DNA of 54,374 nucleotides. It comes from Plicaturopsis crispa FD-325 SS-3 (lineage: Eukaryota; Basidiomycota; Agaricomycetes; Amylocorticiales; Amylocorticiaceae). The translations under genes and the position numbers were made by a program. The notes under the pieces were generated by a model. The model had not been told where the DNA came from and did not search any database. It was given only the letters and a program-made list of their open reading frames with translations. Every line of letters begins with the position of its first letter. The stretch's first letter is position 1. The DNA lies in NCBI GenBank assembly GCA_000827205.1, contig KN832559.1:720529-774902 (forward strand), written 5' to 3'. Shown one piece after another: positions 26,127-54,374 of the stretch.

Positions 26127-27552
26127 CTACAGCTTGGCCATGTTCTCCAGGTTGAGCCCAAACATCTTGTTGTCCTCGATGTTCTTGAGCAATCCCGCGT
26201 ACCCCACGCCGGTGTATCCCGTCTCGCGCATCCAGCTTTCGACACTGTGGCTATTCGGATTGATCTTCTTGACCCAATCCATATCACGCTGAAGGATATC
26301 GTCACGGAACATCCTCCAGAAAGCGCTGAAGTTCTGTCTACACCAGTGTGTAGGGTTTTAGCCAGTCAAATCCGGTAGATTTACGGCCTGGGTAAAGCGC
26401 ACCTGGTCGTCGTAGACCCATCGCCATAAGCTCTCTCGTTCGCGATCGGCGCGTCGACGTTGGTGAAATTGCTCCACCACTCGTCCAGCGTCAGGCGCTT
26501 GAACACCGCCGGCTGTCCCGTCACGCGCGTGAACGTCTCGACGAGATGCTCCCAGCCGACGATCTCGCTCGCGACCTCGAGGTCCTTTGTCGACGTCTCC
26601 GCTCGGTGGTCGAAGATGTAACGAGCGAAGAAACCGACGTCGGTGAGCGCGACCATGGGGACGTGCCCGTCGCCGATAGGAGACGCGAACACGAACGTTC
26701 CGTCCTTGCGCCGGTTGAGAGGCATGAACATTGGCTGTGGAAAAAAATTGTACACCGTCAAGAAATGGCAGATAGAAATATGTTGGAGGTCTCGCGCACG
26801 AGATTAAGCATGTCCATATATGGCCCGGTCGTGAGCTGATAAGGGACAGGCTTAGTCTACTGTGGGTGCTGTGAGCGGAATTTACGCACCGTAGACCACG
26901 ACATATTGTCTTCGCTGACAATCGACGGTTGCGCCTTGAGCCAGTCTCCTACACGACCTTTCCCGTCGTAGTGACCAGTGTTGTACTCAGGTTTATGACC
27001 GCTTTTCTGTTGACAGACGAGATATCAGCACTTCGGGAGCTTGTAGTCTGTGGCATCTACAACGAACCTTGGTAGCATAGTCGAGGTTGCTCCAGACGTA
27101 ATGTCTCATAGTCGAAATGGTTTTTGCAATTTCGAAAATTCGCATGCCACAGAACAGCTCTTTCTGCTCGCCGACAGTGAACCTGAGGACAGTAGTAAGT
27201 ACTGGCGCTAGAAAAGAGAGGGCTGGAGGCATTACCCGTCTGTGTTGTTGAACAGTCCGTAGCATCCCTCAAGAGCGGCAGCGACAGACGCGAAGTCGTC
27301 GAAGGAACCTAGCAATGATGAGATTGAATTGACCATAGGAAGGTGCGCAACAATAGCATTACCTTTGACGCACTCAACACCTTTCTTTGAGAGCTCTTGA
27401 GCTCTGGCGTGAGACGGGTCGCGAGTGAGGGCGCGTATCGCGTACGGGGACGGCGTCCCATCTTCGCCAGGCTGAAGGAGGGCGTCGATGACTGCCACAC
27501 CCTGCGCGCCAGTAGCACCGATGACAAGGATGAGTTTCTTGGGTGACGACAT
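26127..27552 (-). CDS. NmrA-like NAD(P)-binding protein with PTS1 end
   Basis: An atypical short-chain dehydrogenase-like protein of the NmrA/HSCARG family, which senses or uses NAD(P). The first exon (27552-27363) encodes MSSPKKLILVIGATGAQGVA, with the GATGAQG dinucleotide loop, then RALTRDPSHARAQEL. The next exon begins at 27308 (SFDDFASVAAALEGCYGLF). Later exons encode NLDYATK, HYDGKGRVGDWL, TTGPYMDMLNL and PMFMPLNRRKDGTFVFASPI, then a C-terminal exon containing FWRMFRDDILQRDMDWV. The usual catalytic YxxxK pair is not obvious, as is common in NmrA proteins. The protein ends MAKL, a canonical PTS1 peroxisomal signal (AKL). Internal exon limits are approximate; all pieces lie in order and no break was seen. 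Confidence 0.85.
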
Positions 27553-28271
27553 AGCAGTTATGTTAGTTGATGTTCTAGTTAGGTGGATTGTGCAGTACCT
27601 CGCATATCCAATGGGCCGTTTAAATACCCCCCTGCGACGGAAGGGCACGAGACCGGCCGAGGATGCTTGGTGATAATCTGACAGGGAAGGCATCCGTCTA
27701 CGGGGTGACTGTCGATGGAAAGGTTATCGTTAGTGGGCCGTTTCATTGTCTCTGAATAAAAATCCGCGGAATACCGTTTCAAGTGCAATACACAGAAGCG
27801 CTCAGTTATGATCCATGGATACTATAGCGCATGGGAATCCATAGGAAGCATCCAGTAGCTTCGTACAGCAGTCAGTGGTGACATCGTGAAGCCCGGATTG
27901 TACTTGAACTATGTAAGCTCGGACTCGGCGACATATTCTTGGCGTTCCATGGCCAATCCACGGATCTAAGGGCGTTTATTCGCGTAGACGGTGAGAAAGA
28001 GATTCGCAGCGAAAATGCAAGAAAGACTCAATGAACAGCGAGGCATGCACGAGCGATGTTCCACAGATCATGAGCGTCAAGTGTGACGGGATGGCATAGT
28101 TCAACGACTAGAAGAGAATTTGCTGAGACTCATTGAATAGTTGTACTTGTCAGAGCTGAAAGATGCGTTTCCTGCGGGAGTCACATGATGAGGAAGTACA
28201 ATGGCGGAAGGTGGCCGTGGCACTGGGAGGGTGCAGTTGCATTATGCGCTACAACGCCGGCTCGCCTTTGC
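27553..28271. other. Intergenic region, no gene seen
   Basis: About 720 bases between the NmrA-like gene (ATG at 27552, minus) and the 3' end of the first acyl-CoA dehydrogenase gene (minus). It should hold the NmrA promoter and the other gene's terminator. No coding or repeat signal was recognised. Confidence 0.4.
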
Positions 28272-30832
28272 TCACAAACGTGCATTCTTAGGCATGGTTC
28301 TGAACGCCTGGCGCACACCGAGATCTCCCAAAACATCCTCAGCTACGCCAGCGCTCAGTCAGCAAAAGCAGGTGACATGCGGAAGCGGCGTACACGCACC
28401 TCCACCAAGAACAGCATCAAATGTGACAGTCCGGTGATACTGAAGACTCCGAGATTAATAAGGGAGTACAGAAAGGACACGAATAACCCGGAAGGTGGAC
28501 GAACATGTTCTGCCAGACGGCCCATGCCTGTGGTTGTGATGCCCCGACCGCCAAATATCTGCACCGCGTCCTCGGCGGTTTCTTGGGCGGTCTTGGTGCA
28601 ATGCATCTTGACCAGAGCAATTTGACTGAGAAAATGCATTAGCAAAAATCCGAAATAAGATACGAGGAGCATTTACCCGGCCAACTTTTGTGCTTGTTCA
28701 TGATACTGCAAGATGGTAGTTTTCCAGCCTGTCAGTTGACTAGACTCCTCCCAGGAGCTATGACATACGTTCATATGGCACATCTGATAGGTAACATTTT
28801 CAAGCCAGTTTTGAGTGCTTTCGACGCGCGATATCATGGCGGCAAGCTTTGAGCGAATCACCGCTTGTGATGCGAGAGGTTTGCCAAATACTTTGCGTTG
28901 GTTGACCCATCTGGAAGGTAATCAGCTATGGATGTCCCGTCTGATAAGATAGAGCCAAGTGGTATAACGCACTTCAAACATTCCTCGACTATTGCTCTCT
29001 GAGTGGCTGCGGTAGCGCATGCCATTACCCATCTTTCATGGTTGAAGTTGCTGAAAATGACTTGAAGACCGCCATTTTCGGGGCCCAGCGTGTGTTCGAT
29101 AGGCACTTTGACATTCTCAAACGTAACGAACGAAGTGCCAGCCGTCGCACTGTACGACGTCTTGATAGGCTTGGTCTCCACTCCCTCGCCACGTTCAACG
29201 AGAAGAACGGTGAAGCCATCCTGATTGTAACGACTGTGAGCAAAGAAAGCTACATATATGCATATGCATAGATTCGCAAATACCTTGGTTTTGCACGCCA
29301 CAGTGAAGCTGTTGAGCAGATAAATTAGAGATCTTGGAAGTAAGGGGTGTGCCGCACTAGTCCGCGAACGTTCCGTTCGTGATCCACCTGGTAGATGTTG
29401 CAATACAATACTGAATGGATCCCGCCGCACTAAAACATTTTTTGAGACGTACTTTTTAGTGCCATTCACAGTCCAGTACTTTCCATCTGCGGATTTTTCC
29501 GCAAAAGTCCTGAGGCCAGCAACGTCGCTTCCCGCAAAGGCTTCGGAGATTGCAAGGCACATGTGCTTCTTTCTATTCATACAACGCGCATGGAACGATG
29601 ATGAATCAGCTTTGCACGACACACAGAGTGGGGAGTACGCACCCTGCAAGTACATCGGGGACAACTTTATCGCGGATCTCAGGTCTACCGAAGTTGACAA
29701 TAGGAGGAAGGGCTATGACGGTGCCCATACCAAGTCTGTATATAAACTCGTTTTAATGCAGGTTCCTAGTCGTCGTGGTACCGAAAGGAAGCACGAACCC
29801 GTCATGATACCCTACGGAGAAAGATATTGAGATCTCGCCACAAATACAGGATGAAAATGTACTCACCACGCTGCATCATGCGAGGTCCCTCCAAGCATAT
29901 AATCATTTCATGGAAATAATCGAACTGAAACGACGTGTAAGTCTCCGAGGGTACTCCTCGAGAAAACGACTGTGCCTACCTCCTCGCCAGGAAGGATTCC
30001 ACCCATAAGCTGAAGACCCTTCAGATGAGGCCCAGGTCCAATCCTCATGGCGGGGCTAATTCTCGATTAGTACATGGTCACAACCTGTGCATCAACTGGC
30101 CCGCTTACATATTCATTTTCCCCATCTCGTCAAAAACATATTGACTGGGCCGTTTCCCATCCTCCTCCCGAGCCATGGCATCAGGCAATACTACTTCGTC
30201 GATAAACTTCCTGAATGCTGCTTGGAAACGGCGATGACTCTGGGCCTAGTTGAGAAACAATTACCGCGGAAACCAGCGAAATAATCACCTCCTTATAGTA
30301 CGGACTATGATATCCTTTCGAAAGCCAGGTTGGTTCTGCGTAAGGGACCGTGCTGAGAGCACCGGGTGCGCGGGGTCTGATCTGTTCCTCTTCGCCCTCG
30401 ATGGTGCCTATCTTCAGTCGTGCATACTGCGGTTTCTGCAGAACCTCCAGGCGATGCAGACTGAAAAATGCCTCCGTCGCATCGTGTCCAGCTGAGCCAT
30501 TAAGTTGTATCAGGTCGTGGTTTTTTATGCGGAACGAGGAAACAAAGTTGAGAAATCGGACACGTACCGATTTCCTCGTCGTAGAGAACCGTCGGCCCTC
30601 CAGGATGTAAAGTTGCAAACCTAGACAGGTCAAAGACTTTTGAATCGATCACAACCCACTAAAATGACACGGTAAGTAACAATGCAGGTTCTACTTCAAG
30701 GACGCTTACCAGGTCCCCTTTTCGGTTGTGCTGCAGGTGTAAAATTTAGATACCACGTCGCCCGGCGTATGCTACCTGTCGGTGATGGCTCACCTTTGCC
30801 ACCTCGTCTCGCGTAAACTGTTTCGATGCCAT
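28272..30832 (-). CDS. Cytochrome b5-acyl-CoA dehydrogenase fusion, copy 1, PTS1 end
   Basis: A flavoenzyme expected to oxidise acyl-CoA thioesters, with an N-terminal heme domain. Exon 1 is 30832-30794 (MASKQFTRDEVAK) and exon 2 only 21 bases (30730-30710, HNRKGDL). The heme domain shows WVVIDSKVFDLSRF and LHPGG, and the second likely heme His is in ATEAFFSLHRLE. The dehydrogenase part shows CLAISEAFAGSDVAGLRTFA, KKWITNGTFADYFTVACKTK, HTLGPENGGLQVIFSNFNHE, RKVFGKPLASQAVIRSKLA and AVQIFGGRGITTTGMGR. The last exon gives DLGVRQAFRTMPKNARL, a PTS1-type end (ARL). Junctions checked are in phase. It differs from copy 2 by an extra intron after VLYDEEI and by lacking the intron after FDYFH. It looks intact. 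Confidence 0.88.
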
Positions 30833-31305
30833 TGCAGCTGCGGTGGGTGGCTAACAGACGTTCGAGCGTGCGAGGGAAACCTGCACGGCGCATATACTTA
30901 TGGCGCAGCCGGACGAGCGCCAACTAGGTCAGCGGCCACTCGGCTGAATCATAATTCAACTTCTTGCTCCCCGCAAGAGCAACCGGGGAAACGAGGGGAA
31001 GCACAATTCCATATAGACCGATCCCCACGGAAGGCGTTCTGGATCTGAATGCTTCGCCAATATTAACTACAATAAAAGTCTTCGTGAGCGCTACAATGTA
31101 CTAGGACATGAGTGAGACTGGCGGAGTGAAAGACAAGGATTCCTATTGCTCACCGGGAAAAATGTATTGGAATCACCGCAGGTATGTTGCGTTCATACGT
31201 GTGAATTAATTTTACAACAAGTCCAACATTGTGTTATACATATGAACTAGGATATCAAATTTGAGTACTTTGTGTATAGAAGAGTAGGAGAGTCAACGCA
31301 CTAGA
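30833..31305. other. Spacer: promoter of acyl-CoA dehydrogenase copy 1 and 3' end of the LysM gene
   Basis: About 470 bases between two minus-strand genes. It contains an A/T-rich stretch around 31030-31280. No ORF or repeat can be supported. Confidence 0.4.
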
Positions 31306-32440
31306 TTATGCCCGCCTAAGCAACTTGCTTCCACCGCCAGCGGCATCCCCCCGTTTCTTGGCCGAGCTCGACTGGCTCGAAAAATACGGAAAAGTTGGGA
31401 TGATGGCCGACCTACCCGCCCTCCTCTCGCTCTCCTCCCATTCCGCATCGTCTAGATATCTATCAAGGGCCCGGCTCTCGACGTCCGTTCTTACACCCTT
31501 GGTTGGTACGGCGTCCTCCTTGAACTTCGCGTAATGGCCCAAAACGTCTTCAGGATCATCGGCGAGCGCAACATAGGCCTTGGCGACCCTCCAGTCAACC
31601 TCTTTCGTCAACGTCTGCAGTCGCTTCTCAGCACGTTCACGGGCTCTACGAGATTCGCGCTCCTGATTATCACCTTGCGAGAGGGCGCCTTTCTGAGCAA
31701 GAAGCTTGCGGGATGCCGGAAGTATGATCACGTTACGAGTATGCAATATATGCGGCGTAGTGCTCAGTGTGCTCGGAGGGAGATTGTTGAGGCGGCATAG
31801 CTCGTGGCCCTGCGTAGCTGATGAGACTTGTAGCATTTTGCAAGGTATATGCACTCACGTTCACACCGAATCGCAAGGCTATGCCTTTCAAGGTGTCGTC
31901 GGACTTTATATAATATTCAACTTGCGAGACCTGCGTAGAGGCATCGCCCTCTAGAGCAGGAGATTCTAGGGCCGAGGAAGAAGGAGTCGGCGGCGCGTCA
32001 GGAGCAGGCGTAAACGAGTCTACCGCTGAAGCGGAGTATGGAGGAGGTCCCTCGGTGGAAGGATGCAGGCCGGCGGGCTCGTCCTCGTCTTCGTCATCAT
32101 CGCCGATAACGTATGTATCTTCATCTCGAACGGCACCGTCCAGATTTCGTGGAGCAGCAGAAGCAATCTCTGGGGCGACGCTGCTCCGACCTCCTGACCT
32201 CGCCGTTGTACCTGCACCGCCGAAGCAAGCCAGACAAGGATCATACCGAGCCAGCCGAGGGTTGGAGGAGATACAAGCAGGGCAGATCGGTCTCCTGCAG
32301 CACCGAGTGATAAATATGCCCGAACCGTCGTATGGGTGTGAAGACGATGAGCTCGCCATCCGTGGTGGCAGCGAAGACGAGCATGCCAGGCAAAGAGGGC
32401 TGCTTCTGGTTGTCGGCGACGATGATTTCATAGAAGACAT
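31306..32440 (-). CDS. Intracellular LysM-domain protein with N-terminal Cys cluster
   Basis: Two exons, 32440-31859 and 31809-31306 (a 49-base intron), give 361 residues. There is no signal peptide. The N-terminal 80 residues carry paired cysteines (SPLCLACSSSLPP, then RCCRRPICPACISSNP, then YDPCLACFGG), a likely zinc-binding module. An acidic, Pro-rich linker follows (EDTYVIGDDDEDEDEPAG). The LysM domain spans the intron: VEYYIKSDDTLKGIALRFGV, then GHELCRLNNLPPSTL and HTRNVIILP. A basic helical region (RRARERAEKRLQTLTKEVDW) and a tail ending SKLLRRA close the protein. LysM domains usually bind chitin or peptidoglycan, but the architecture here points to the cytosolic LysM family (LYSMD-like). 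Its first ATG is 165 bases from the Atg17 ATG, on the opposite strand. Confidence 0.88.
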
Positions 32441-32605
32441 TGATGCAGATTTCTATGAGCACAAGTTCTTCACAAAGAGGTATATCCAAGGTATATCTGT
32501 GTGTATATCGTATAGATAGTGATGGTCGAGATTAAGGAGTGCGGCGGCGCGAGAAGAACGTCCGCGCGTGGGCGAATGCATCGAAATACAGGTTCCTTCC
32601 GCACC
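32441..32605. promoter_or_regulatory. Short divergent promoter, LysM gene / ATG17
   Basis: Only 165 bases separate the two start codons on opposite strands, so the two genes must share or overlap their promoter elements. A GTATATATCC-like A/T-rich piece lies around 32480-32515. Confidence 0.45.
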
Positions 32606-34537
32606 ATGGCCTCCTCGCCAACGGCGGCGCGTCCTGAACAGCCTCACCTGGTCTCACTGGTCTTGCAGTCCAAGAAAGCACTGCAGCACGGCGAACAGCT
32701 GTGCTCCCGCGCTAACTCTCTGTCAAACGCGTCTGCGCAATGTGCAGTCGATGTCCTGGCTCTCGACGCCAAAGTGAGGTGGATCACTGACGCCGTCCTG
32801 GAACAGCTGAAGGTAAAGCAAAGTCCCTGCTGCGCTCTTAGTTCTCAGAGATTGATGTTGGTTGTTTGTCGGTGGTCAGCTAGCTGCGAGCGTGGCCAAA
32901 AGCATTGAGCACAAACGCGCCCAGCTAGGCAAACGAGTAAACGTATGAGCCTCATTCCCTCGTGTCAACATTACCGTTCTCATACTGGGCGAATACGCAA
33001 AGGAATGGGACAAGGAACGCGCAATTCGTACGGATGCACTTGACGCTATTCTGGAGTCTCTCGGATCGCAGCTGGTCCCTCCCGATTTCCACCAGCAGTC
33101 TTCGGACTCCTCCCTCTTTGGCAGTCAGCACTCCGACGAGGAGATAGAGAACGGCGTCAATGCTCAACATCCTGAGAATAGCCCCACCGGGACCGTGCGC
33201 CACATCCGTGTCGGCCACAAGAATCGAATAGACCGGTCTAAATGGAAGACGCTGCGGGATTTCGTGGACGAACGGGCGATCGAGGATGTGCTCGAGACGA
33301 TGGACAATGACCGGACTACTTTCGACGTGAGTGAACGAACCTGAGCACCAGACCCCCATGGTAGTCCCTTCAGGCTAAACTCCCAACAGGATATCATTTC
33401 TGCGACGGTCGATTATCCGGAAACACTTGCGAATACAGTCGCGACAATCCAGGCCTCTTTACCGGACGACGAGCCGTTACCTCCCATCGAGAGCATAATT
33501 CGTTCTCAAGAGGGGGTGTCCACAAATATGGCGAACCACCTGGAAAGTTTGGCCTCACATTATGACCAAATGGCCAGTGCACTGCATGAAAGCGAGGCAG
33601 GCGAAGTATTCAGCGAAGACGATCTGCAAGGTCAGCGAGACGGGATCTAATTTCAAATGAGCACCGAGAGACTTACACTGTCCAAGACATGAATAGGGAT
33701 ACGGAAGAGCTCCCTTCCATTATGCAAGAACTTGAAGAAGGCATAGTTGCTATCGAGGCTACCCAGTGAGTGCAACCGCTGTGTGCATGCGCGCCACTCA
33801 CTCACCCTAGCGGAAAATGGGTCAAAGCCAGCAACTAATGACTGCAAAGTCTACGTCCCAGCAGCGATTACAGACTCACCATAATGTTCTCGACGATCTA
33901 GACGAACTCGGGGACATCATGACTGAGATGCTACAACGCCAGCAAACTGTTGAAGTAAGTAACCCGCTATTCTTGCCGTCCGGCTCAGGCTGACCTAGTA
34001 AAGGATGACTGCGATGCCCATCTGACGCAAATTCAGCATCACTTACTCACACTCGAGGAGCTCAACCACCGCTACCTACTCTATCAAGCCTCGTTCAACA
34101 AGTTACTTGTTGAGATTGCGCGGCGTACGCAGTATCGAGAAGCGGCCGAGAATATCGTCCGGACTATGATGGCGCAATTGGACGCCATGACCGAAGGTAC
34201 GTTTTCCCATTGCGATGGCTGCACCAACTGAGTTCACTGACTATATGCTCCGTACAGAGGAGCGTCAATTGCGCGAAGAATTTAGAGATGACCACGGCGG
34301 TCATCTCCCGGAAGACATTTGTCTCTGCATAGAGAATCCTCCAACGAAGTGGGAGATCGTCCCGTGGAATGGTGAAGCTCTCGAAGCGCTACCTGAGATC
34401 GATAATGACATCTTGGCCGAGGTAAGACAGCCCATATTCTGTTCAGTTGTGAGCCGCGTTGCTCATCGCTTGACTCGTAGGCGAAAGATCGTATTAGCAA
34501 TGCCGATGGTATTCTTCCTGGAAGCGAAAGCCTTTGA
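32606..34537 (+). CDS. ATG17: Autophagy protein Atg17
   Basis: Scaffold subunit of the Atg1 kinase complex that starts autophagosome formation at the phagophore assembly site. Nine exons fit with phase: 32606-32812, 32880-32942, 33003-33326, 33390-33630, 33687-33765, 33828-33954, 34004-34196, 34258-34421 and 34481-34537, giving 484 residues, close to the family's usual length. Family features are the N-terminal helix (LVSLVLQSKKALQHGEQLCS), KTLRDFVDERAIEDVLETMD, SLASHYDQMASALHESEAGE, LDDLDELGDIMTEMLQRQQT, LTLEELNHRYLLYQASFNKL and the C-terminal part ERQLREEFRDDHGGHLPEDI followed by CIENPPTKWEIVPW. The protein is mostly helical. The ATG at 32606 (MASSPTAARP) is preferred. Confidence 0.92.
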
Positions 34538-35788
34538 GGAACACTTGCAACGATTTTAGGTCCTGGTTCTTACGCTGGCCGTAGCACTACTCACTGCCAT
34601 CAGTCGAAATCAATCGGTGCTCTCTGTCATTGGAACCAATGCATTCATGATGCATGAAATGCCCGTCCTTGCTCGTACTCGGATTATTCTTCAATGGCTT
34701 AGCTCCAGACGCAATCTCATGGCATTGAATGTCACACATGGAACGTAAGTACATGCAAAGAGGAGTCTAGCCAGTCCGCCTCTATCCTGGACCTCGAGAT
34801 TCTCTTCGCTCACCCTCTCCCCACCGTCATCGCTTGCTCAATTTCATTACGACGTCAGTCGCAACGACACCGTCGACCACTGGCGCCCGATCAGGTGAAA
34901 TGGTCCACGAATGTCGTATAGATCGAACGGCCACGCATAATGAATAGGCGGAAAAACCTTGCGTCTGATCATATGTCAACGCTGTGTCAACGTATGGCAG
35001 TGGATGCATGCGTGAACGCGTGACAGGTGCGATATTATTTGGATACAAACGCGTGGACGTGTCGACGGGTGAGCCACAGTGGTGTGGTGCGTTCCGAGAG
35101 TGCGCACCGTCTGATACTTTGCGGGTGGGCAGGCGTGCGCATACCTGCATGCCGTCCGAACTCGGGCTTGCTAGACTCAAGCTTCTCGACAGTTTTGCGA
35201 ATGTTTGCTGCAGTTCGGGTGACAGGACCAGCACATTTTGAGTCCGACTTGCATAGAAAGGAATGAGTCTACTGGTGTCCACTGGAATTTTGCAAGATAA
35301 AGGTTGGATGAAGGCAAGATGAAGGAGCAGATGAAAGCTGGGCGCCGACGCCGCAGCGCCGCAGTGTGAATTGGCTCCAAGGCGTGGGAATGGCAACCGC
35401 CTGCCGAGGCGGCATCGCCTGAACGCCCGCCTCGGGCTCATTTGGCGCAATAATTGATCCCGTCCGTCGTCTTGAAACTCTCCCTCCAACGTCGATCTCG
35501 ACGACGACGACGACACCGACAACGACAATTTTTCAAGGGTCTTGTCATCCAAGTATCTCGTTTTCTTCGTTGATGCGCAACAGTCTGCCTTAGTCGGTGC
35601 GTCCAGCTTTTCCGTGTCCTTCTATCCACTCTGACCACTTTTGCCAATACCTCCAGAGTCCGCAGTGCTTTTCAGCTTATTTTTCTTGCAACTTGCTCCC
35701 AGCAGCTGCTGTACACTCTTTCACACCACCGTCGCTCGTTCGCTGTAGCCCCCACGCTCAATCCCCATCCCCAACCGCCACTTTTGCC
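34538..35788. other. Intergenic region with C/T-rich promoter
   Basis: About 1.25 kb. The right half is strongly pyrimidine-rich on plus near 35450-35790, with a CGACGACGACGACGACAC microsatellite at about 35498-35515, as expected for the promoter and 5' UTR of the downstream gene. A 241-codon minus frame (34827-35552) starts at a non-ATG codon and has no family resemblance, so I do not call it. Confidence 0.45.
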
Positions 35789-37126
35789 ATGCCCGCCCAT
35801 CCACAGGCGGCAAGGCGTCTACACAAGCGACAGGACCCACCTCCCGTACCTACCGCGTCTGGTATAACAGGTGCTACGTCGGTAGCTGACTCCCAAGCCA
35901 CTGCCGGTGCCAACAGTCTCCTGCTTGACACCTCGGCAGCTGCATCTACCGCCACCTTTTCCGTCCCCCCAATCGCTGCTAGCATAGCACCGGTCGTGTC
36001 GGAGACACCGACTTCTTCGGTCTCATCTGCAGCCTCTGCTGAACCGTCATCCTCCTCCTCCGGCAGCAGCAGCGATATACCCATAGGCAGCGTTGTCAGC
36101 GCAGTCGTAGGGTCGATCATTGGAGTCATTGTACTTATCATATTTGCCGTCCGGTGTAATCGTCGCCTGTCCCGTTTGCCGAAATCCACTTCGCGCAGTC
36201 CTACGTCGCCCTCCGACGCTCGCAATGCCAACGGAGAGCATGCCCGGCGCCGTTCGCGTCTTGAGCCTTGGGCCAAGCTCGATGATGCGTCGGAGACGAA
36301 GGAGGTGGCAGACTCGGCCGCGATGGAGAAACTCACCATGTTCAAGAAGTCTCCCAGTCTACGCTCGGGCGACAGCGAGAAAGTTACCTCGGATGGTGGA
36401 CATGAAATCGACCTCGGAGGCCCGCCGGCGTTCGCGAAGTATCATCCACAACTCGCAGAGGAGCTTGCGAAGACCCCCCAGCGGCAATTCCTGGGACGGG
36501 TCGACGCTGGCGCGCCCATATCCTGGGGCGATGCTGATACCCTGGGCGACGAGTCCTTCCTCTCGTTCAGGGACTCGAAACTCAATACCTCCCATCTTGA
36601 CTCCATGGCCTCCACGGGCTCTGTCACTTCCTCTGCTGTTGTCCGCAACACTCCCGCAGCCACAATTATGGAACACAATTGGCAGTCCGCGGAGGTCATG
36701 CACTACGAGGGCGAGGGCGAGACTGGCGAGGTCCAGAACCCATTTGCAGATGAGCCCCCGGTCGAGCGGCGTAAGAGCCAGAACAACCCCTTCTTCAGCG
36801 GACGCGACTCGCATCAAGGCAAGCGCTCCCGTTCACGCTCCCGTTCGCAAAACCCCTTCACGGACGCACACGCTGCCCGTGCACCCGCCCCCATCTCTAC
36901 GGACTCGCGCCTGCTGACGCACACCAGCACCGACAGCAGCGAGCAGGCCATGCAGTCACTCATTGCAGCTCTGGATGTGTCGCCGGGCGGCGCTCTCCGC
37001 GGCCACTCGATGCAGCCGTCAGTCGTGCGGAGCTCGGTGATGACAGGTTACACCGACAGGACGGATGATATTGAGGGCGCGTTCCCGCTGCCGCCAACTG
37101 GGCCGCAGTACTCGTCTTCGCAGTGA
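35789..37126 (+). CDS. Single-pass membrane protein with Ser/Thr-rich ectodomain and NPF motifs
   Basis: An intronless frame of 445 residues from the ATG at 35789 (MPAHPQAARRLHKRQ). The first 105 or so residues are rich in Ser, Thr, Ala and Pro. The transmembrane helix reads GSVVSAVVGSIIGVIVLIIF and is followed by basic residues (RCNRRLSRL). The cytosolic half contains three NPF-type motifs (VQNPFADEPP, QNNPFFSG and SQNPFTDAH), the classical ligand of EH domains in endocytic adaptors, and a basic SRSRSRS stretch. There is no clear cleavable signal peptide, although KR at residues 14-15 resembles a Kex2 site. Overall it resembles fungal plasma-membrane sensor- or mucin-like proteins; no ortholog is assigned. 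Confidence 0.85.
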   Translation: MPAHPQAARRLHKRQDPPPVPTASGITGATSVADSQATAGANSLLLDTSAAASTATFSVPPIAASIAPVVSETPTSSVSSAASAEPSSSSSGSSSDIPIGSVVSAVVGSIIGVIVLIIFAVRCNRRLSRLPKSTSRSPTSPSDARNANGEHARRRSRLEPWAKLDDASETKEVADSAAMEKLTMFKKSPSLRSGDSEKVTSDGGHEIDLGGPPAFAKYHPQLAEELAKTPQRQFLGRVDAGAPISWGDADTLGDESFLSFRDSKLNTSHLDSMASTGSVTSSAVVRNTPAATIMEHNWQSAEVMHYEGEGETGEVQNPFADEPPVERRKSQNNPFFSGRDSHQGKRSRSRSRSQNPFTDAHAARAPAPISTDSRLLTHTSTDSSEQAMQSLIAALDVSPGGALRGHSMQPSVVRSSVMTGYTDRTDDIEGAFPLPPTGPQYSSSQ

Positions 37127-37727
37127 ACGGACACGATCTATACTCCGCTTGGTTATTCATTCTCACCCTACTTACCCTTTAGTTGCATACCATTCTCTTC
37201 TCTGCGAATTTGGTTGCATGCGATCAAACTCCTAGGCCATATGTGTACACCCCCATCTTCGCCGTTGCTCGACGCGCTGTCCGCCCCCCTTTGCGATCAG
37301 GCAATCGAATCTTATACTATCTTCTTGCTTTTGCGGCGTATCTTGGCACTTACCCTTTTACCACGAGCCGTGGTCCTATTTATTTATTTCGGGTCTTGGC
37401 CTACGAATCCATGCATTGGACTTGGCTTATCGTCTTGGGCATATTGCTAAGAAAGTGTAACGGTTGGACGCTAATAGACGAGCTCGAGTTTGCCCTACAG
37501 CTTGCCTACAGCGTTGTAACTTGTAAGCAATTCGATTTCTCTGTGGGGCAATTATCGCGAGCGGATTGGTCCCCGCATATCGCAAGTTCCCCGGATGCCG
37601 AAGTCCGTCATCGGCTGTCGTGCATCGGGCGTGCATATCGCAAGAAACACATGAAAGCCTCGCAAAGATATATCACGGCCACAAGCCAGTCCCGTCAATC
37701 GTATTCACCTCTCTCTCTCTAACCGCC
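37127..37727. other. Intergenic region upstream of acyl-CoA dehydrogenase copy 2
   Basis: A plus-strand open frame of 179 codons covers this stretch but begins with TTG and shows no conserved sequence, so I read it as 3' UTR plus promoter. A CT-repeat (CTCTCTCTCTCT) lies at about 37709-37720, just before the ATG at 37728. Confidence 0.45.
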
Positions 37728-40130
37728 ATGTCAGACAAACTGCTCAAACAGTTCTCGAGAGATGAGGTCGCAAAGGTGCGTCGCTCGCTACTCTGGTTGG
37801 CGCGTTACGGATCCTGACTCCGCGTGCAGCACAACAAAGACGGTGATCTGGTTCGAACACGATTTTGTCTCGTTTATATACGCGTGTGCTTATACCGATG
37901 ATAGTGGGTCATCGTCGACACCAAGGTCTTTGACCTGACGCGCTTCAAGAACCTCCATCCCGGAGGCTCGTTCGTCCTCGTCGATATCGCCGGGCAGGAC
38001 GCCACCGAGGCGTTCTACAGCCTCCACAGACATGAGATCCTCGAAAAGCCGCAATACCAGCGCCTGCAGATTGGCACCATCGCCGAAGAGCAGAGCAGCC
38101 TCTCCAGCACTCTTCCGGGAGAGCTCAGTCAAGTGCCATACGCTGAACCCACATGGCTCGCGAAGGGTTACCACAGCCCCTATTACACTGAGGTGGGTGT
38201 GCACGTATGTCGACGCGAAGTACGCGAGTTAATCTCGCGAGTAGGGTCACAGGAAGTTCCAAGCTGCTATGCGGGCTTTCCACGACGAGTGGATATATCC
38301 GGACGCGCAGGCTCGTGAAGAGGATGGTGAGCATCATTACATCCCTGGGCTGTATATAGATGCTCATGAAGGTTCCAGGAAAACGCCCTGCTCAAAGTGT
38401 TATAGACGCCATGGCGTACGTGCGCGTAATTATCTGTATCGCGCGCTTGCTAACAGGACTACAGGGCCAAGAACCTACACGCAATGCGTATGGGACCCGG
38501 CAAGCACCTGCAAGGTCTCACTCTCATGGACGGCCTTGTGACTCCCGAGAAAGTGCGTACATTTAGTACCCGCTGTTGACGTTGACTGAGCTTAACTCTG
38601 CATGTAGTTCGATTATTTCCACGTATGCGATCTCCTCAAACCTTGGTTGCGCTCCTACTTACCCGGTTTTTTCTCTTTAGGAACTTATCATCACTCAAGA
38701 ATTTTCTCGATGTGGTGCTCGTGGCTACGGCGACGGTACGCCTGCTCATATCTTCCGTTGGGGGATATAACTGACCCCAAATGTTTTCGCAGGTCTCCAG
38801 GGTGGCTGTGTCATCGGTCTTCCCCCGGTGCTCAACTTCGGATCGGACGAGCTCAAAGCAAAAGTTGTCCCTGAAGTACTATCGGGCAAGAAATTCATAT
38901 GCCTGGCTATTTCTGAGGCGCATGCGGGAAGCGATGTCATGGGGCTGCAGACGACAGCGACCAAAACCGAAGACGAGAAATACTGGATCATCAACGGCAG
39001 CAAGAAGTGGATAACGAACGGCACGTTTGCAGACTAGTAAGTTTCGTGTCATTTCACTCATGTATCGCTTTACTGACAACCCGCGACATTAGCTTCACTG
39101 TTGGCTGCAAAACGGAGGTATGTCTTCGTCTTTCGGTACAGTGAGATATGTATACTGAACCAGTCACTTTAGGATGGCTTTACGGTCATACTGGTTGAGC
39201 GCAGCGAGGGTGTAGAGACTCGTCAAATCAAGACGAGCTACTCGACTACCGCCGGTACGGCTTATATCACGTTCGAGAACGTCAAGGTCCCCGTTGGAAA
39301 CACGCTCGGCCCCGAGGGTGGAGGAATATTCGTCATCCTCAGGTAACACTCCCACATCAGGTGATTGGGAGGGCTGCATGCTGACAACGATTGACAGCAA
39401 CTTCAACCACGAGCGGTGGGTTATGTGCTGTGCGTCAGCACGGAGTCAGCGCTCCATTGTTGAAGAGTGCCTCAAGTAAATTTTCAGTCTTACTCCTTTT
39501 GTAGGCCGTGTTGTGCTGACGACGCTACTCAGGTGGACCGCCCAGCGGAAGGCTTTCGGCAAGCCGCTCAACTCGTTGGCAGTTATCCGGTCGAAACTCG
39601 CTGCGATGATTGCGCGGGCTGAGAGCGTGCAGAACTGGCTCGAGAGCATCACATATCAGATGAACAACATGAGCTACAAAGAGCAGTCCTCGAAACTTGC
39701 GGGGTGCGTACATGCCAGGTCCACGGTCTTCATATGTATGATCGCTGATCATGCCCTCGCATCCGTTCTGCTGGACAGGCAAATCGCATTCTTGAAGAGC
39801 TACAGCACACAATGTGGCCAGGAAACTGCACGGGATGCTGTGCAAATATTTGGTGGCCGTGGCATTACGAAGTCGGGGATGGGTCGCTTCATCGAGCATG
39901 TGCGTGTCCCTTTTGCTTTTCCCGCCTATGTTCCTTTCCCTAATCTACGCCTTCCCAGTATCATCGTACCATCCCATTCGACTCGTTACTTGGAGGCGGT
40001 AAGCAGTTTCCTCAACTCCAATTCTCGCTGGACTGTTATTAACAAAATACATTTGTTAGCCGAGGACGTGCTGGCCGATCTTGGTGTCCGACAGGCAATG
40101 AGGGGCATGCCCAAGGACGCGCGGTTGTAA
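37728..40130 (+). CDS. Cytochrome b5-acyl-CoA dehydrogenase fusion, copy 2, PTS1 end
   Basis: A paralog of the gene at 28272-30832. Sixteen exons sum to an exact 517-residue frame: 37728-37775, 37830-37850, 37905-38192, 38245-38326, 38379-38415, 38465-38552, 38608-38622, 38681-38735, 38793-39036, 39093-39117, 39173-39342, 39398-39475, 39533-39703, 39779-39899, 39959-39998 and 40060-40130. The heme domain shows WVIVDTKVFDLTRFKNLHPG and DATEAFYSLHRHE. The dehydrogenase part shows FICLAISEAHAGSDVMGLQT, KWITNGTFADYFTVGCKTED, LGPEGGGIFVILSNFNHERW and VQIFGGRGITKSGMGRFIEH. It ends RGMPKDARL, a PTS1-type signal. The 15-base exon encodes FDYFH. Near the C terminus the sequence is LLGGAEDVL where many acyl-CoA dehydrogenases have YEGT, so the identity of the base residue is uncertain. 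Confidence 0.92.
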
Positions 40131-40364
40131 GGGATGCAGCTTGCATATCTTCCAGTAGAGGGTACCTTGGACCGTGTATACACCATCATAATGTTGTCGG
40201 TGAAACTATATATTATTTCTATCTTGTCGTACAGCGATGGAGTATACAACCAAGACAAACATGGTCAACAAAAGACAACAGGAAAGCAGGGAGAAATGCC
40301 AATAGCACAACAACACCGATACGTACAACCCCAAGTACATAGCCTAAGTCGAGAGGAAATATAT
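40131..40364. other. Short convergent 3' spacer
   Basis: 234 bases between the stop codons of acyl-CoA dehydrogenase copy 2 (plus) and the Zn2Cys6 factor (minus). It holds only the two 3' UTRs. Confidence 0.4.
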
Positions 40365-43300
40365 TCAATTAAACGGGAATTCTGTCATCATGGTTGAACC
40401 GGGGTCAGCGGACTGCATGTGCACGTCGGGCGCAGGCGACGGCATCTGGTTCATCCATGCAAACCCTGTGTGCGCGTCGGTTAGTCCGAACTATCATCCT
40501 TGGCACGACTTCAGCTCACCAGGTATAGCCGTGTCATGCCAGGCGTGGTTGCTCAGCTGCTGCATCGACTGCAGCAGCTCGTCATCGAACGGCAGTGGCG
40601 GCCTGAAGAGGTCCGTAGCGTCCATGTTTAGCATCGGCTGTGTGTCGAGCGAGGCACGCCGGCCCGTCGGCGCTAGGGATTCTGCGCCGTCTAGAAGAGG
40701 CGCGAACTGATCGAAGGCCATGGATGTAGCAGACGTTGGCTGAGGAGACAGGGGAGCATCCTCTCCAGGGGATGTAACGTAGACACTACTGCCGGTGATA
40801 GATTCGATGCTGGTTTCGCTAGAGGATTGGCGGGGCAGCGAGGGCTGACGGGTCTTCAGATCGCTTGGTGATTGCGAGTCGACCCTCGCCATCGGTGTGG
40901 CAAGGAGGCCTTTGAGGAAACGTGAATAGAGCTTGGGGCCATGGCGGTCGTCGATGGCGATGTCGGGGGATCCAAGCAGGTCGATGACTTGCTGCACCAG
41001 ACTTCTGATTTCTTCTCGCTGTTCTCTCGATAGGTACGACGCGAATTTGGGTTGCAACAGCTGACAGCGAGTGTCAATATCAGAGCGAAAATGCTTGCGG
41101 CTATGAGAATCCTACCTTGACGAGGAATGCACATGCAAAGGTCACGAAGACGCTCTGTGCTTCAGGACCATGGCGCAGATAAACTCCTGCATAGACATCA
41201 GCATTCGACCACGCAGATAAAATTGAGAAAAGCGTACTTTGACTTGGTCTGGCAACGTCGTTCAAGATTGTGTTTACAACATCCGAAGCCGCACGGTAAC
41301 ACTGAAAACAGTGTTGAGTTAACATATCCAACCGCTACAGAGAGGATGATAAAGACCTACCCGAAGAAGAAACGGGTTTTCGTCCGTGTTGTTTTTCCCA
41401 AAAGCATGCTGGAAGCCAAATGACAGTGCTAAAAGTCGCGCGTAGCTGTATGCGAGTCGTAAGAGCCCAGTTCTGAAGCAAAACTGCGGATTCGTCGTGT
41501 CGCCTTGCTCGAGGCACTTGAACCATCGATCGCCTAGACTGACAAGGTCATCATCTGTTTCGATGGCAATCTTCTCAAAGTCGGCCTCCTGCGATGGACA
41601 TGTAACACGTCAGAGAGACAGACACCGTAACAGGGTGATTATTCGCACCTTGTTCAAACCGGTCGGATGCTTGGGGTCATTGTATATTTTTTGCAAAAAG
41701 GCGCCCATGACCCGTAGCTCGGAGTTGTACGCGCAGGTGTGCACGTCGAAGTTGGACAGATTGTAAGCGGAGCTGCACCACCAGGAGACCGAGTTGTTCG
41801 CGACATAGTCCGTACTCGGGATGATGGGCGTCTTTCCGTACTGCGATCCCGTCGAACGGTCGAGGTTGAAACAGTTTAGCCAGAGACGGCTGCGGTTCAG
41901 CATCTCCCGCGCATGATGCTCGTTCAAGGGCGTCGCTGTGTTCGGATGGTGAAGATTGAGATCTATCGCTATTCTGTGAAGCAAAAGGACCATGAGCACT
42001 GCGAGGCACAAAGGTTTGTTCGATGACAGCACGCACCGGATGGCTAGCCCAAGATAGATCCAACTCCGGTCTTCTTCCCAGCGCCTCGCAGGCACAGGGT
42101 AAAGACACATAAGAATATAAGCATGGCAGACATCCACACTTTTTTGCCCGCTGATGAGTGCAGTACCAGCCGCCAACTGAGCGTACTTCATAATTTGGTG
42201 GTAAAGCTCTGGCCGCTCCGTGTAGAATCGCGAAGCGATGGCGCATACTGGTTTAAGTTATCAATGGCATATCCAGCAAGTATGACAGGGCAAAACTACT
42301 TACTGACGGTGAACAGGAAGGGATTCCTCCAGCAAGTATTTTGAGCAGTATATATCACAGGGTCCAACAGGGAGACAGAGAGGTTCATGTAGTCGAAATA
42401 TCTATTTCGTTGTGAGGAAAGTTTCGCAGCAAATTGAGAAATAGATCGCACATGCTGAATAGCTTCTCAGCTTCTTTCGTAGTTATGATGCCGCGTGAAA
42501 GAATATGTGGGACCTGCGGCTCTTGGTGAGATCCATTGCTAGCGGTCCTAGCAGGATCGGGCCCGGGACCTAAGAGTACCACATATCGTCAATACCCCTT
42601 CTGTACTCACGGCGACAGATAGGGAGCGTACTCGGCCGGAAAAAATTGTCATTTGCGAGGCCCACGTCATCCGCGTTCGAGCCGACGCTGCTCCGCCTTC
42701 GCCGACTTTTCTTGAGCGCCATATCCGCCATGAGCCCAAATGGCGAAGCACCTGACGGAATAGTCGCTAGCTTGTCGCCACTCGACCTCTTCGGCGCCGG
42801 ATCGCGTTCCTTCGAAGTGCTGCGTGCCCTGTCCTCCGAGCGGGGGCTTTCGTCAACGCCAGACCCCTCACCATAAAGGTCCTCCACGGCCTCTTCATAC
42901 GCGTCTGGGTCAGATTCAGAATCCTCTGGGTCCTCGTCTACGAGAAGGGACTTCGTCATGCCGGCGCCCCCGGCACCGATAAGGCCACCGAACGCATCGA
43001 TGGATGCGCGCGCCTCCGCGAGCCAGTCCCGAACTTCGGGCTTCGAGTCGTAGGAGCCCAGGGTCGGAGAGTGTAGGTCAGCATCTCCACTAGACGAGGG
43101 GGAGGGAGCCTTGGTTTCCTCCAGCAGTGCCATGAGTCTTTGAATTTCCGATGCCTGCTCGCGGATCTCTTTCAGAAGATGCTCGCGTTTTCTATTGCCG
43201 ATGAATATTTGCAACATGGACAGAGACGAAGTGGACACTTACGGAGGCACCCTGCGCTTTTTGCGGCCCGGGGTAATGCATTCGTGCCCTCCGTTCAAGC

Positions 43301-44155
43301 AGCGTTTGCACGGATCCGTGTCTGACGAGGATTCACATTTGACCTAGAGCAGATTCAGTAAAAGTAGGGGGTCATCATATTTATCTAAATACCTTCAGGC
43401 TTTTGCACCGAGAACAAGCGCCAGGACTACGGAGAAACACGTTAGTGCGGTAACCTTCGGCAGGATACGACTCACGGCTTGATTTTTGCTCCTCCGTCCT
43501 GGGCATTTTCGGGGACATGGTTATCGTCGTCATCTCCGTCATCGGCGTTTGGAGCCCCACGCGGTCTCTTGGATGCATGCAAGTCACTTTTGGTCTTGTA
43601 GTGCTGGGCACCAGTCCGCTGGAATGGTGCCAACATTGGAGGAGATACCTGAGGAGGGGTCAGGCCACCGTCGTTCGCATGAAAATTAGTAGCGGGTGCG
43701 CTCTGGCCGGCTGCAAACTGGCCATGATAGTCATACGCCGGTGTGTACGATGTCGATGGGTTTTTGGGAGGATAGGGCGGAGCACCCGCCTTGAATTGGG
43801 GCTGGCTCGTAAAAGTGAAGTCGGACGCAGATAGTCCAGGGCCTGAAGAAGGGTAAAACGAGCCACCCGGCGCTGCGCTATATGGTACGCCGCGATGCTG
43901 GTGAGTTCCTGAGGCCGCATGCCCGTTGGATGGAGGAGAAAACTGTGTAGAGTAGAACTGGGGTGCAGAAGCTGGGGGCCCGGACGCAAACTGCTGCATG
44001 TACTCGCCGTTGCCCACGTCCCCCTGCTGCGAAAAGTCGAATGAGCCATTGCCGCTGGGGATGTCGTATTCGTGTTCTAGTTGAAGGTGCGGTGCGGCAG
44101 GAAACTGCTTTTGCGGGGGAACGCCCCAGCCATCGTATACTGGCATAGTGGACAT
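40365..44155 (-). CDS. Zn2Cys6 fungal transcription factor
   Basis: A binuclear zinc-cluster DNA-binding regulator. The start is the ATG at 44155 (MSTMPVYDGWGVPPQKQF). A long Gln/Pro/Ser/Gly-rich N terminus of about 220 residues precedes a KRPRG nuclear-localisation-like stretch. The zinc cluster is split across small exons around 43250-43480: ACSRCKSLKV, KCESSSDTDPCKRCLNGGHE and C, giving CxxCx6CxnCxxCx6C, followed by the basic linker PGRKKRRVPP and a coiled-coil dimer region (LLKEIREQASEIQRLMALLE). The middle part, around 41.3-42.6 kb, matches the fungal-specific regulator domain (LWLNCFNLDRSTGSQYGKTP). The last coding piece is Met/Pro-rich and ends MMTEFPFN at 40365. Many exons; internal limits are approximate. 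Such regulators often control nearby catabolic genes, but the target here is unknown. Confidence 0.88.
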
Positions 44156-44505
44156 CCTGCAGGTGTGCAGATGGCTTGGGAACGGGGTGCAACAGCCTAG
44201 ACACGGACAGTACTCTTAAATAGGGATCCAGTGTCGAAAAGCGCCCAAGCGCCTCAATAAGACGAGCCGTTTCCCCATATTGCGGCATTCGATTGTGGTT
44301 AACTTTAAGGTTGATGATGGAAAAGCCAGTACTTGTTTCAACTTTCCGGTGCTCGGTGTACTGACATGTCTATATGTTTTATATCTCTCTTTGCTCAGGA
44401 TACTGCGATAAATCTCATGAAGTAGTTGTTCGGGTGCATAAACGAAGGTCGAGGCAGGGATAAATACAGGCGCGTGAGTGCATAAATAGTACTGGGAACG
44501 GACAC
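44156..44505. other. Spacer between two minus-strand genes
   Basis: 350 bases between the promoter end of the zinc-cluster factor and the stop codon of the CoA-transferase gene. An open frame runs through it but shows nothing conserved. Confidence 0.4.
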
Positions 44506-46035
44506 TCAAAGTTTGGCATTCACAGGATTTTCGTGCGGCTGTGCGATGACTCTGTCCGCGGCAAGCCTATGGCGTTCATCCTGAGAAATTCCAAGCTCTG
44601 CAAGAATTTCATATGTATCAGCTCCAGGGTGAACGACCTCAGGGCCCTCCGCTACAGCACGCGGCGGTGTCCGCGAGAGGAGGCTATGCATAGTGGGCGA
44701 TGAGGAAGCAGAAGCCTCGATAGCTTCGTCAGGCGTAAGCACCGGCACAACGCAGCAGTCGCTTCCTACGGAGAGTCAGTTCCATTGGAAACACGATATT
44801 AACACGCGGCCATACCGTGAAATATTCCGGTCCAGAAATCTCTGGTCTGCGTCCTGAATCCGTTCTCCAAGTAGGTTCGCAATCTACCCCAATGCACTCT
44901 GTCTTCTTGCATTTCAGGGACCGGAACCCACCCACTCTCGTCAGGCCCGACTTCTCTGACGAACAACGCTAGGAATGCGGCGAAGAAATGGGGCTCGAGG
45001 GCGCCTACGGACATCAGCCGCTGCGGGGAGTCCGCACACGCGTACACCCCATAATAGGGCGCGCCTCCGTCGAGTGGATTTTCGCCATGTGGGGCCGAGA
45101 AAAACGACGTCTGAAGATACTTGTGAAGAAGTGGGAACGACGCAAGATAACGCGTGCCTGTGACCTGCAAAATATTCGAATAAGCATTGGGCCAAGGAAG
45201 ACAGGTACGTACCATATCTGCATCGACGATTTGTCCGCGCTTACTACGGGTGCGTTCTAGAAGTGCGAGGAGAATGCCGATTGCACAAAATAAGCCACCT
45301 CCGCCAAAGTCGGCGAGGAGGTTGAGTGGGAATTTCGGCACCGGCGAGCCAGGCAAGAGCTGAGCCTACCGTGAGGACGCATGCATGCAAATATGAGAAC
45401 ACAGACTGACAGGAAGTAGACCGCTGAGAGCGAGATAATTGATGTCGTGACCTGACAGAACTGAGGTCAACACAGTACGCACTTCGAAGCCACCAAAGAT
45501 TTACCTGCCATATTTCTGTGCGGACCTGCAAGTATATAGGCATCAGTAGGGAATGCGAGATATGGCATATTTACGTACCCGTCCGCGGAAACCTGTCATT
45601 ACATTAATTATCCGTTCGATCTCATAGACGAGGAGCTTACCCGACAATGCGCGCATAGACCAGCTTTTCATTCAACCCACGCGTCTCCCCTGCGCCGAGG
45701 AAAACCTCTGGTCCCAATCCTAGCTTTTCCATGACTCCCGGGCGGAAGGGGTCGATCACGACGTCTGCCTCCGAGATGAGCTTTTTGAGCACGGCGCATC
45801 CCGCAGGCACTCTAGCATCGATTGAGATAGACCGCTTTCCGCGCGATAGCAGGTCACTGGTCTGCGCGCCTGGCTTGTCGACGCGTGTGACACTTGCGCC
45901 GTTGTCGGCTAGAACGAGGCCGGCGAAAGGTCCTGGTGCAAGGCCTGCAAACTGGGGCGTGTTTGTTAGCTATCGTGCATTCGCTTGCAAGGGTAGAGGA
46001 CACACCTCGACGACTTTGAGACCTGTTAGAGCCAT
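44506..46035 (-). CDS. Family III CoA-transferase / alpha-methylacyl-CoA racemase-like, PTS1 end
   Basis: A CaiB/BaiF-type enzyme; members move CoA between acids or epimerise 2-methylacyl-CoA before beta-oxidation. Start ATG at 46035. The first exon shows LKVVEFAGLAPGPFAGLVLA and NGASVTRVDKPG, the latter part of the CoA-binding region. Next come SIDARVPAGCAVLKKLISEA and DVVIDPFRPGVMEKLGLGPE, then small exons, then GHDINYLALSGLLP, containing the family's catalytic-site signature with the Asp after Gly-His. Later come NLLADFGGGGLFCAIGILLA and RGQIVDADMV, then the exon with DGGAPYYGVYACADS and a C-terminal part containing VHPGADTYEILAELG. The protein ends VNAKL, a canonical PTS1 (AKL). AMACR itself acts in peroxisomes and mitochondria, so this fits. 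Some exon limits are approximate; no break was seen. Confidence 0.88.
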
Positions 46036-48116: not shown

Positions 48117-48561
48117 ATGTAATACTGTTACCTTCCTGTCAGTGCTTCCCGCCCGTGTACTTTGAAAATCCTTCCGCGCCGTATGGAGTGATCAAGACAG
48201 ACAGGCCTGTGTTTCAAAGCAAGACAAGATCGTATACTGTAGCCATCCGTCCACAGAGACGCGTGACGGTACCCCTCCGACGCAACCTCAACGTGAGCAC
48301 ACGACTACTGCATACAGCAGGTGCATTTGATTATATGAACAAGGGCACAATGAGGGTACAATGAGCCACGACGTCGATGATGAGGGGCTTCAGGCTCAGG
48401 CGACAGGAAATTTAGTCACGCGCGGTGTCCGACTTACACATGCCACTCAATTGCAAGGCTTTCAGAAGGTACTACATACAGCTGAGATACAGGTACACCA
48501 TTCCCCAGTCTATACTCCCGACCGGGTCTGCGCGGACGGAGAGTACCCCGCGGTTGATTGA
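48117..48561. other. Convergent 3' spacer
   Basis: 445 bases between the Arp3 stop (plus) and the stop of the first epimerase-like gene (minus). Open frames on plus here are not conserved. Confidence 0.4.
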
Positions 48562-49995
48562 TCATTGATAAAGGTGCATCGACGTATTTCCACTTTTCAG
48601 GATGGCTTCCACTTCGGGCTTGATGCTGGCGAGCAGATCATCCGTCGTCTTCGTAGGCTTCCACCCTAGTGCCTTCGAGCGGGTTGCACGAGAGCGCGAG
48701 TTCCTTGAAAGGTTCAAAATCTGGGCCAGAATCGAAATTGAGTACGCTTTTCAACGATGTATACAACATATTGTCAGTGAGGCTTCACACTCACCGCAAA
48801 GTGCTTTATATAATCCTCTTCTGTAAACGTCGTCGGCTCTGGGCTCTCGCCTTTCCCAAGCTCGAACAAAGCTTTGGCAATGGCGACACTAACGTCGTAC
48901 ATCTTGTGCTCGCCGTTCTCGCCGAAATAATACCCTTCCTGACCGTGGCCCGCTGCATTGGACCCAGAGAGGACTGCGTCCAGGATTAGGATGTAAATGT
49001 CTGCAACTGTAATGATCTTTAGTAGACAGTATAGTGGCAGAAATGAATTGAGGAGTTACATACCTTCATCGATGTGGACATTATGCCAGAAATTAGCACC
49101 CTTGCCTACGACGCCGCCCTGTCCTCGCTGAATGGAGGCCTAAAATGAGTCACTGTCAGATGTCTCGCGAGTACACTTCATCGAACACCCAGCACCTTTA
49201 TAAGACCCGGAATCTGGACTGAATGAGGGTTCTGGAACCCGATATCAACGAGGGGGCCAGTGGCCAATCCATATATCATGGAGGGTAGGACGATGAACGA
49301 TCTCGCGTATCCCGCAGTATCGGCGGCTTCAATGGCCAAGTCAATTCGTCGGTGCGGTTGAGTGGCAGGGAGCGTGGCGATCTGCGCTGCATCCGCGTCG
49401 TCATAGATGTCTTCGGTAGGATACATGCCGGCGGAGCTGTCTCCGAGGACACCTACGTGTCGAAGTGGGTGCAATTAGACATTGCCACAAAAGAGCACAC
49501 GACAAGCGGGCCCACCAGTCCCTGACTAGAATCGCTATAAGCGATCATCCCTGGTCATAATTAACATAGACCACAGAGTAGACGCACGGTATGTATGATC
49601 ACGGGCACCTTTCCAGTCTCCTGGTGTCGCCTCTTAAGCCCGCGCACAATCGCCTCTGCCGCCGGCAGGTCGTCGCTGTCCGCAGCACTGACGATAATAT
49701 CAGCACTGGCTGCTGCGTCCTCCAGAAGCTGAAGGTCCTGGTTCGCGCCTATGATCGGCGTGACAGACGGGTACTTGGACGCGATGAGAGCAGCTTTGTC
49801 CTTGTTGCGGATGAGCGCACGAATCCTGAACTGGGCGGCCTTGGGGTGCTGGAGGAGGCGCGTGAGGACCGTGCCGCCAATATAGCCTGGAAGTAAGTGT
49901 TTAAAGGTTAGTTTAATTATATCAATCACTAGAAGAGAAAGAGAACGCTGCGCACCTGTGGCCCCGGTGAGGAAGATGTCGATGGTCGAGGACAT
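48562..49995 (-). CDS. NAD(P)-binding epimerase-like protein, tandem copy A
   Basis: A Rossmann-fold protein of the extended short-chain dehydrogenase / NDP-sugar epimerase group. The ATG at 49995 gives MSSTIDIFLTGATGYIGGTV with the GATGYIGG loop split by an intron. Next are RALIRNKDKAALIASKYPSV, IIVSAADSDDLPAAEAIVRG, VLGDSSAGMYPTEDIYDDAD, RRIDLAIEAADTAG, VLPSMIYGLATGPLVDIG and GVVGKGANFWHNVHIDE. The last is the conserved His-rich segment that precedes ILILDAVLSGSNAAGHGQEG and YYFGENGEHKMYDVS. The C terminus has KALGWKPTKTTDDLLASIKP and ends MHLYQ. About six exons, approximate limits. It is the downstream member of a same-strand pair with the gene at 50475-52009. The substrate is unknown. Confidence 0.85.
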
Positions 49996-52735: not shown

Positions 52736-53765
<1,030 letters not shown>

Positions 53766-54016
53766 CTAAGTACTTGCTCACTACAGTGAGAAGGCGGCAA
53801 TTTTCAAGCACTGTATGACAGTCATATCTGAACAAAACAAAGTGAGTCTTTCAAAGCATTTTGACCTAGGCAACGGCATTGAACGGACGATGTGTTACTC
53901 GCCACAGGTGGCGTGTGCCACTGGGTACAATCCACCGAAATCTGGCCAGAATATGCTAAATAAAGCCTAGTTTTAGAGTGAATAAATTGACCAAAATCTG
54001 AGCAAGAATTTTGTAA

Positions 54017-54248: not shown

Positions 54249-54374
54249 AGGATACTGTGGAGAAAATTCAAAATAGTACATACAGTATTATTGCCTAGAT
54301 TATCTTAAGATTATTGGGAACATTACTGTGAGATTATAGTGAAGAATATCCAGATAAAGGTTTGTGTAATATCA

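Follow-up and report, generated by a model that had tools for sequence, protein, structure and literature searches.

Acyl-CoA dehydrogenases (ACADs) carrying a type 1 peroxisomal targeting signal (PTS1) are already known from basidiomycetes, as passages of one study on Ustilago maydis show (PMC9133605). Its library of GFP-PTS1 dodecamers from presumed peroxisomal enzymes included the acyl-CoA dehydrogenase um01466, with the tail QALRMMPENARL, which is treated there as an enzyme of peroxisomal beta-oxidation. In the ascomycete Fusarium sacchari, one of the 14 ACADs is described with a Cyt-b5 domain in a passage of PMC11817166. Solved structures of the same family or fold include the alpha-methylacyl-CoA racemase MCR of Mycobacterium tuberculosis (PDB 1X74), isovaleryl-CoA dehydrogenase (IVD, PDB 1IVH) and long-chain acyl-CoA dehydrogenase (LCAD, PDB 8W0T). 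Here we focused on a window of 54,374 nucleotides (C6:720529-774902) in the 33.2 Mb genome (49 contigs) of Plicaturopsis crispa, where two cytochrome b5-fused ACADs (hereafter, ACAD1 and ACAD2) and one alpha-methylacyl-CoA racemase lie within 20 kb of each other and all end in a PTS1-type tripeptide. Compared by tail, the ACADs of this locus (QAFRTMPKNARL) nearly match um01466; they share the b5 domain with the F. sacchari protein, whereas that one is from an ascomycete. The locus probably represents a peroxisomal acyl-CoA module long established in Agaricomycetes, which comprises two anciently diverged b5-fused ACADs (A-type and B-type) and one racemase.

An earlier reading of the window without database searches (hereafter, the sequence-only reading) had claimed that these three genes and a fourth, for an NmrA-like protein, carry PTS1-type tails, and this was borne out. 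The ends MAKL (NmrA), ARL, ARL (ACADs) and NAKL (racemase) are present in the DNA and in the spliced models, with no internal stops. The models were built from anchors and by a protein-guided alignment script, and the last exons were modelled on homologues, except for ACAD2, which was modelled on its own database copy (P0121, PLICRDRAFT_159111 of P. crispa; identical over 517 amino acids (aa)).

The tails were then compared with those of the best 120 homologues per family, drawn from at least 3313 matches for ACAD (7996 candidates), at least 7775 for the racemase (7998 candidates) and 599 for NmrA (3777 candidates). A strict PTS1, defined as [SAC][KRH][LM] at the very end of the protein, was found in 102 of the 120 ACAD and 82 of the 120 racemase homologues, the tail conservation that the sequence-only reading had put forward as a check. 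All 120 ACAD tails end in [KR]L; in the racemase, position -2 is K or R in 117/120 tails and the last residue is L or M in 117/120. Decoy ends, obtained by cutting off 1 to 40 residues, matched the strict motif in at most three (ACAD), two (racemase) and two (NmrA) of 120. Only the last two positions of the racemase tail are conserved (entropy of ~0.5 bit vs 2.8-3.7 bits at -4 to -15), as one would expect for a sorting signal. Five b5-ACAD genes were found across the genome (two in the window, two on C8 and one on C1), all of which end in ARL, and several of the listed homologues are already named peroxisomal acyl-CoA-dehydrogenase. Given matches to Pex14_N and to an acyl-CoA oxidase, the genome likely encodes both the machinery for peroxisomal import and an oxidase route in parallel. 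In the main text of a Histoplasma peroxisome proteome (PMC13343957), a term search turned up neither acyl-CoA dehydrogenase or racemase nor NmrA or cytochrome b5; a peroxisome review (PMC10822820) contained no relevant ACAD passage, and a literature search on SQL as a PTS1 was unproductive.

The sequence-only reading had also named synteny across Agaricomycetes as a check, and for the ACADs and the racemase it came out in favour, the genes being linked in many of these fungi. With equal contig size taken as identity (for 104 of the 120 rows in each family), ACAD and racemase rows fall on one contig in 34 of the 39 species common to both lists, compared with at most 1.94 species under random placement of the racemase (P = 4e-47, assuming a 30-Mb genome and independent species). 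The linkage is old, and no description of it was found in the literature searched, a search that did not extend to subscription papers (Camoes et al. 2015 among them). Six species have sequential locus tags of one prefix (far-apart DRAFT numbers were left out), and their smallest ACAD-racemase gaps are 1 (Amanita phalloides and Stygiomarasmius), 6 (Marasmius tenuissimus), 8 (A. polypyramis), 14 (A. inopinata) and 76 (Volvariella). The two genes have consecutive DRAFT numbers in A. thiersii, numbers that may not be positional, and a single 897-aa model of Mycena citricolor contains both racemase and ACAD, in which annotation has probably fused two neighbouring genes. This linkage across mushroom species suggests that the genes act jointly in breaking down one type of fat. 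As a separate observation, Stygiomarasmius scandens has two racemase homologues (P0306 and P0335) with consecutive tags, adjoining an ACAD.

The two ACADs of the window belong to different types. In a quick tree of 123 ACAD rows, 83 rows including ACAD2 form clade A (Shimodaira-Hasegawa-like approximate likelihood ratio test, SH-aLRT, 95), and ACAD1 falls outside it, grouped with the two C8 copies (99). We refer to all rows outside clade A as B-type, which do not necessarily form a clade. Among the 12 species in which both types are represented, seven carry them on one contig (expected at most 0.47, P = 8e-9), and in Tricholomella their tags are three apart. A recent tandem duplication was rejected as the origin of ACAD1 and ACAD2, which are 69% identical and sit on opposite sides of the supported split. 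Elsewhere in the genome, the two C8 copies form a tandem b5-ACAD pair (C8:722000-728500) that is 98% identical and has 9-10 exons, as against 16-18 in the window.

The racemase belongs to the same family as MCR (E = 5e-75), with His126, Asp156 and Glu241 of MCR, which we take to be the active-site residues, all matched; it differs from MCR in its PTS1 tail and its genomic partner ACADs. Its assignment as an ordinary class III CoA-transferase was disfavoured, the best solved relatives being racemases. A search of the genome found no second racemase copy, and two further CoA-transferase III loci lie on C1 and C5. ACAD2 shares its fold with IVD and LCAD, which in contrast reside in mitochondria and lack a fused b5 domain. 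Its Glu363, the candidate catalytic residue, aligns with Glu254, the catalytic Glu of IVD, and is invariant in 123/123 rows. LCAD has its Glu at the same position as IVD, and both enzymes work on branched acyl-CoAs, which fits the racemase partner; straight long chains are also a possible substrate of the ACADs. The b5 fusion is indicated by matches of the window exons and P0121 to PF00173, and the heme ligands His41 and His64 are present in 123/123 rows.

The most likely scheme is one in which the ACADs and the racemase would be imported through Pex5 via their C-terminal PTS1. The racemase, judging by its aligned residues, would interconvert (2R)- and (2S)-2-methylacyl-CoA and deliver the correct epimer; the first oxidation, which introduces the alpha,beta double bond, would fall to the b5-fused ACADs. 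From FAD, electrons would move to the b5 heme of the fusion and then to a further acceptor. The substrates would be alpha-methyl-branched or long acyl-CoAs. A narrower and distinctly more tentative proposal is that the linked genes are a peroxisomal module dedicated to alpha-methyl-branched acyl-CoAs, in which the ACAD's own b5 heme would be the built-in electron acceptor and the first step would proceed without an electron-transfer flavoprotein or an H2O2-making oxidase. To our knowledge, how a peroxisomal acyl-CoA dehydrogenase disposes of its electrons without an electron-transfer flavoprotein is an open question. If the proposal is true, the acyl-CoAs may come from, for example, phytol, sterol side chains and branched lipids of decaying plant matter. 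The conserved link between a b5-dehydrogenase and an alpha-methylacyl-CoA racemase points to the substrate class and offers a testable system.

Several observations weigh against the three-gene module or narrow what it can explain. The substrate class would follow from fold and partner only. The homologue counts cover the best 120 per family, and even there the strict motif is missing in 18/120 ACADs and 38/120 racemases; the whole ACAD tail is conserved, not just ARL, so ARL alone is weaker evidence in this family. Contig sharing was judged from size, most of the linkage is at contig level, where broad macrosynteny could yield part of it, and the three further ACAD copies of the P. crispa genome are unlinked. 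ACAD and racemase are also unlinked in five of the 39 species, namely Heliocybe and Neolentinus (with only B-type ACAD rows among those listed), Hygrophoropsis, Pleurotus pulmonarius and Schizophyllum commune; different assemblies are likely for the last two, given differing locus-tag prefixes in Pleurotus and one racemase row from a named strain in Schizophyllum. The main rival for the linkage is that the proteins are peroxisomal and have stayed together through slow chromosome rearrangement, without functional meaning. This would fit the many linked contigs of more than 1 Mb, the unrelated genes (ATG17-like, actin-family) between or beside the linked ones, and the NmrA-like gene, a neighbour of doubtful function that is also linked somewhat above chance. 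However, 11 of the 15 species with ACAD contigs below 450 kb still have the racemase linked, the tag gaps are 8 or less in four of the six species with comparable tags, and the linkage of NmrA to ACAD (6/24 species) is far below that of the racemase (34/39), although NmrA, as a multi-copy family, is an imperfect control. We consider it rather unlikely that such macrosynteny is the whole explanation. For the tails themselves, chance was evaluated from the window's 1620 stop-to-stop open reading frames (ORFs) of 20 aa or more. Ten of these have strict ends, and four of the ten are the named genes; removing these four leaves a background of 6/1616 (0.4%). With eight genes at 26-46 kb by our own count, P is ~1e-8 for four of eight genes at this rate, ~2e-6 for three of seven if the two paralogous ACADs are counted once, and ~3e-5 for three of seven at an assumed real-proteome rate of 1%. 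These values are for a single window and unadjusted for the many 20-kb windows in a 33-Mb genome, in which some window with three independent PTS1 genes is likelier than 3e-5, which makes the cluster, taken alone, no more than moderately surprising. A search for further PTS1 genes in four flanking stretches gave strict ends in 5 of the 865 ORFs that reach 20 aa, all five being 22-59 aa long (one stretch, with 9 ORFs only, is practically uninformative). It is the conservation of tags and linkage that lifts the cluster above chance: the ACAD and racemase tails are kept in homologues and the decoy ends are not, which contradicts pure chance for ACAD1, ACAD2 and the racemase. A chance origin of all four tails was rejected on this ground and is very improbable, but the NmrA tail alone may still be chance.

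The NmrA-like protein is where the three-gene module parts from the sequence-only reading, which had seen a peroxisomal neighbourhood of four genes with this protein as a possible unrecognised redox-sensing partner; the tails and linkage uphold the neighbourhood for ACAD1, ACAD2 and the racemase, and do not support it for the NmrA-like protein. Its tag was the most eye-catching part of that reading and is the least supported. The protein has an NmrA-type dinucleotide-binding domain (PF05368 on homologues, GATGAQG in the window model), and one of its homologues matches the N-terminal region of NMRAL1/HSCARG (PDB 2WM3), with the alignment limited to residues 4-152 of 357. In favour of a four-gene neighbourhood, a diverged paralogue in the same genome (C20:247300-250000) likewise ends in MAKL, and 99 of the 120 listed agaricomycete homologues have a terminal Leu, with the rest of the tail variable. 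A relaxed pattern, which we take to describe PTS1, fits 53/120 and is slightly clustered on a tree of 120 rows (118 homologues, two of more than 450 aa having been left out, and two P. crispa proteins), with 34 changes vs 39.9 for shuffled labels (14/500 as low). Of 24 species, six have NmrA and ACAD rows on the same contig (at most 1.35 expected, P = 9e-4), and the strict motif is richer in rows linked to ACAD or racemase (5/10 vs 15/108 otherwise; Fisher 0.012, kinship ignored). On the other hand, strict PTS1 ends occur in only 20/120 homologues and are unclustered on the same tree (20 changes vs 20.5 shuffled, 230/500 as low), so a conserved strict-PTS1 protein is unsupported. The family is multi-copy, the linked rows of Mycena vulgaris, M. 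rosella and Gloeophyllum end in VLL, ALL and KGL, and NmrA and racemase rows share a contig in three of 17 species (expected at most 1.03, P = 0.07). No gene-level adjacency to ACAD or racemase was seen among the listed homologues, and in Ganoderma adspersum the NmrA and racemase tags are 1215 apart. A conserved terminal Leu with an unstable PTS1-like end makes a peroxisomal location possible for this family, but most probably the NmrA-like gene only adjoins the module, its PTS1-like end being no conserved feature, and we regard its membership in a four-gene neighbourhood as unlikely.

Table 1 Features of the P. crispa locus, in window coordinates.
Feature	Position	Strand	Description	Basis
NmrA-like gene	26127..27552	-	357 aa, 7 exons, tail LENMAKL-stop; module membership unproven	Spliced model; homologues with PF05368
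ACAD1, cytochrome b5-acyl-CoA dehydrogenase, outside clade A (B-type)	28272..30832	-	18 exons, tail TMPKNARL-stop	Spliced model, tree
ACAD2, cytochrome b5-acyl-CoA dehydrogenase, clade A	37728..40130	+	517 aa, 16 exons, tail GMPKDARL-stop	Spliced model, tree
Zn2Cys6 / Fungal_trans regulator	40365..44155	-	Limits as in the sequence-only reading	Fungal_trans match; Zn2Cys6 residues read by eye
Alpha-methylacyl-CoA racemase	44506..46035	-	390-392 aa, 8 exons, tail NPVNAKL-stop	Spliced model; M. tuberculosis MCR match

The two lengths of the racemase model reflect one ambiguous acceptor, which leaves the C-terminal end unaffected. The gene also contains micro-exons of 14 and 21 nucleotides (45505-45592, minus strand), a trap for automatic gene prediction. 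The assembly behind the P0121 record is not identical to the one used here, its contig being 1938800 and C6 1877716 in size.

The regulator between ACAD2 and the racemase, which the sequence-only reading had placed there, is indeed present, with a Fungal_trans domain at 41613-42257 (minus strand) and a Zn2Cys6 motif within 43201-43460, seen by eye in the translations across an intron; a one-frame pattern scan of the region found no such motif, which by eye spans that intron. The ATG17-like matches in the window fall under the Pfam cut-off, one ORF scanned in the LysM region (31736-32452) had no Pfam match, and no NCBIfam family was above cut-off for the five proteins scanned. Further along the window, at 48301-54374 (minus strand), is a tandem of two similar NmrA/NAD-binding genes, in which the ORF 49564-50097 has a Pfam match, and an Ala_racemase_N gene adjoins them.

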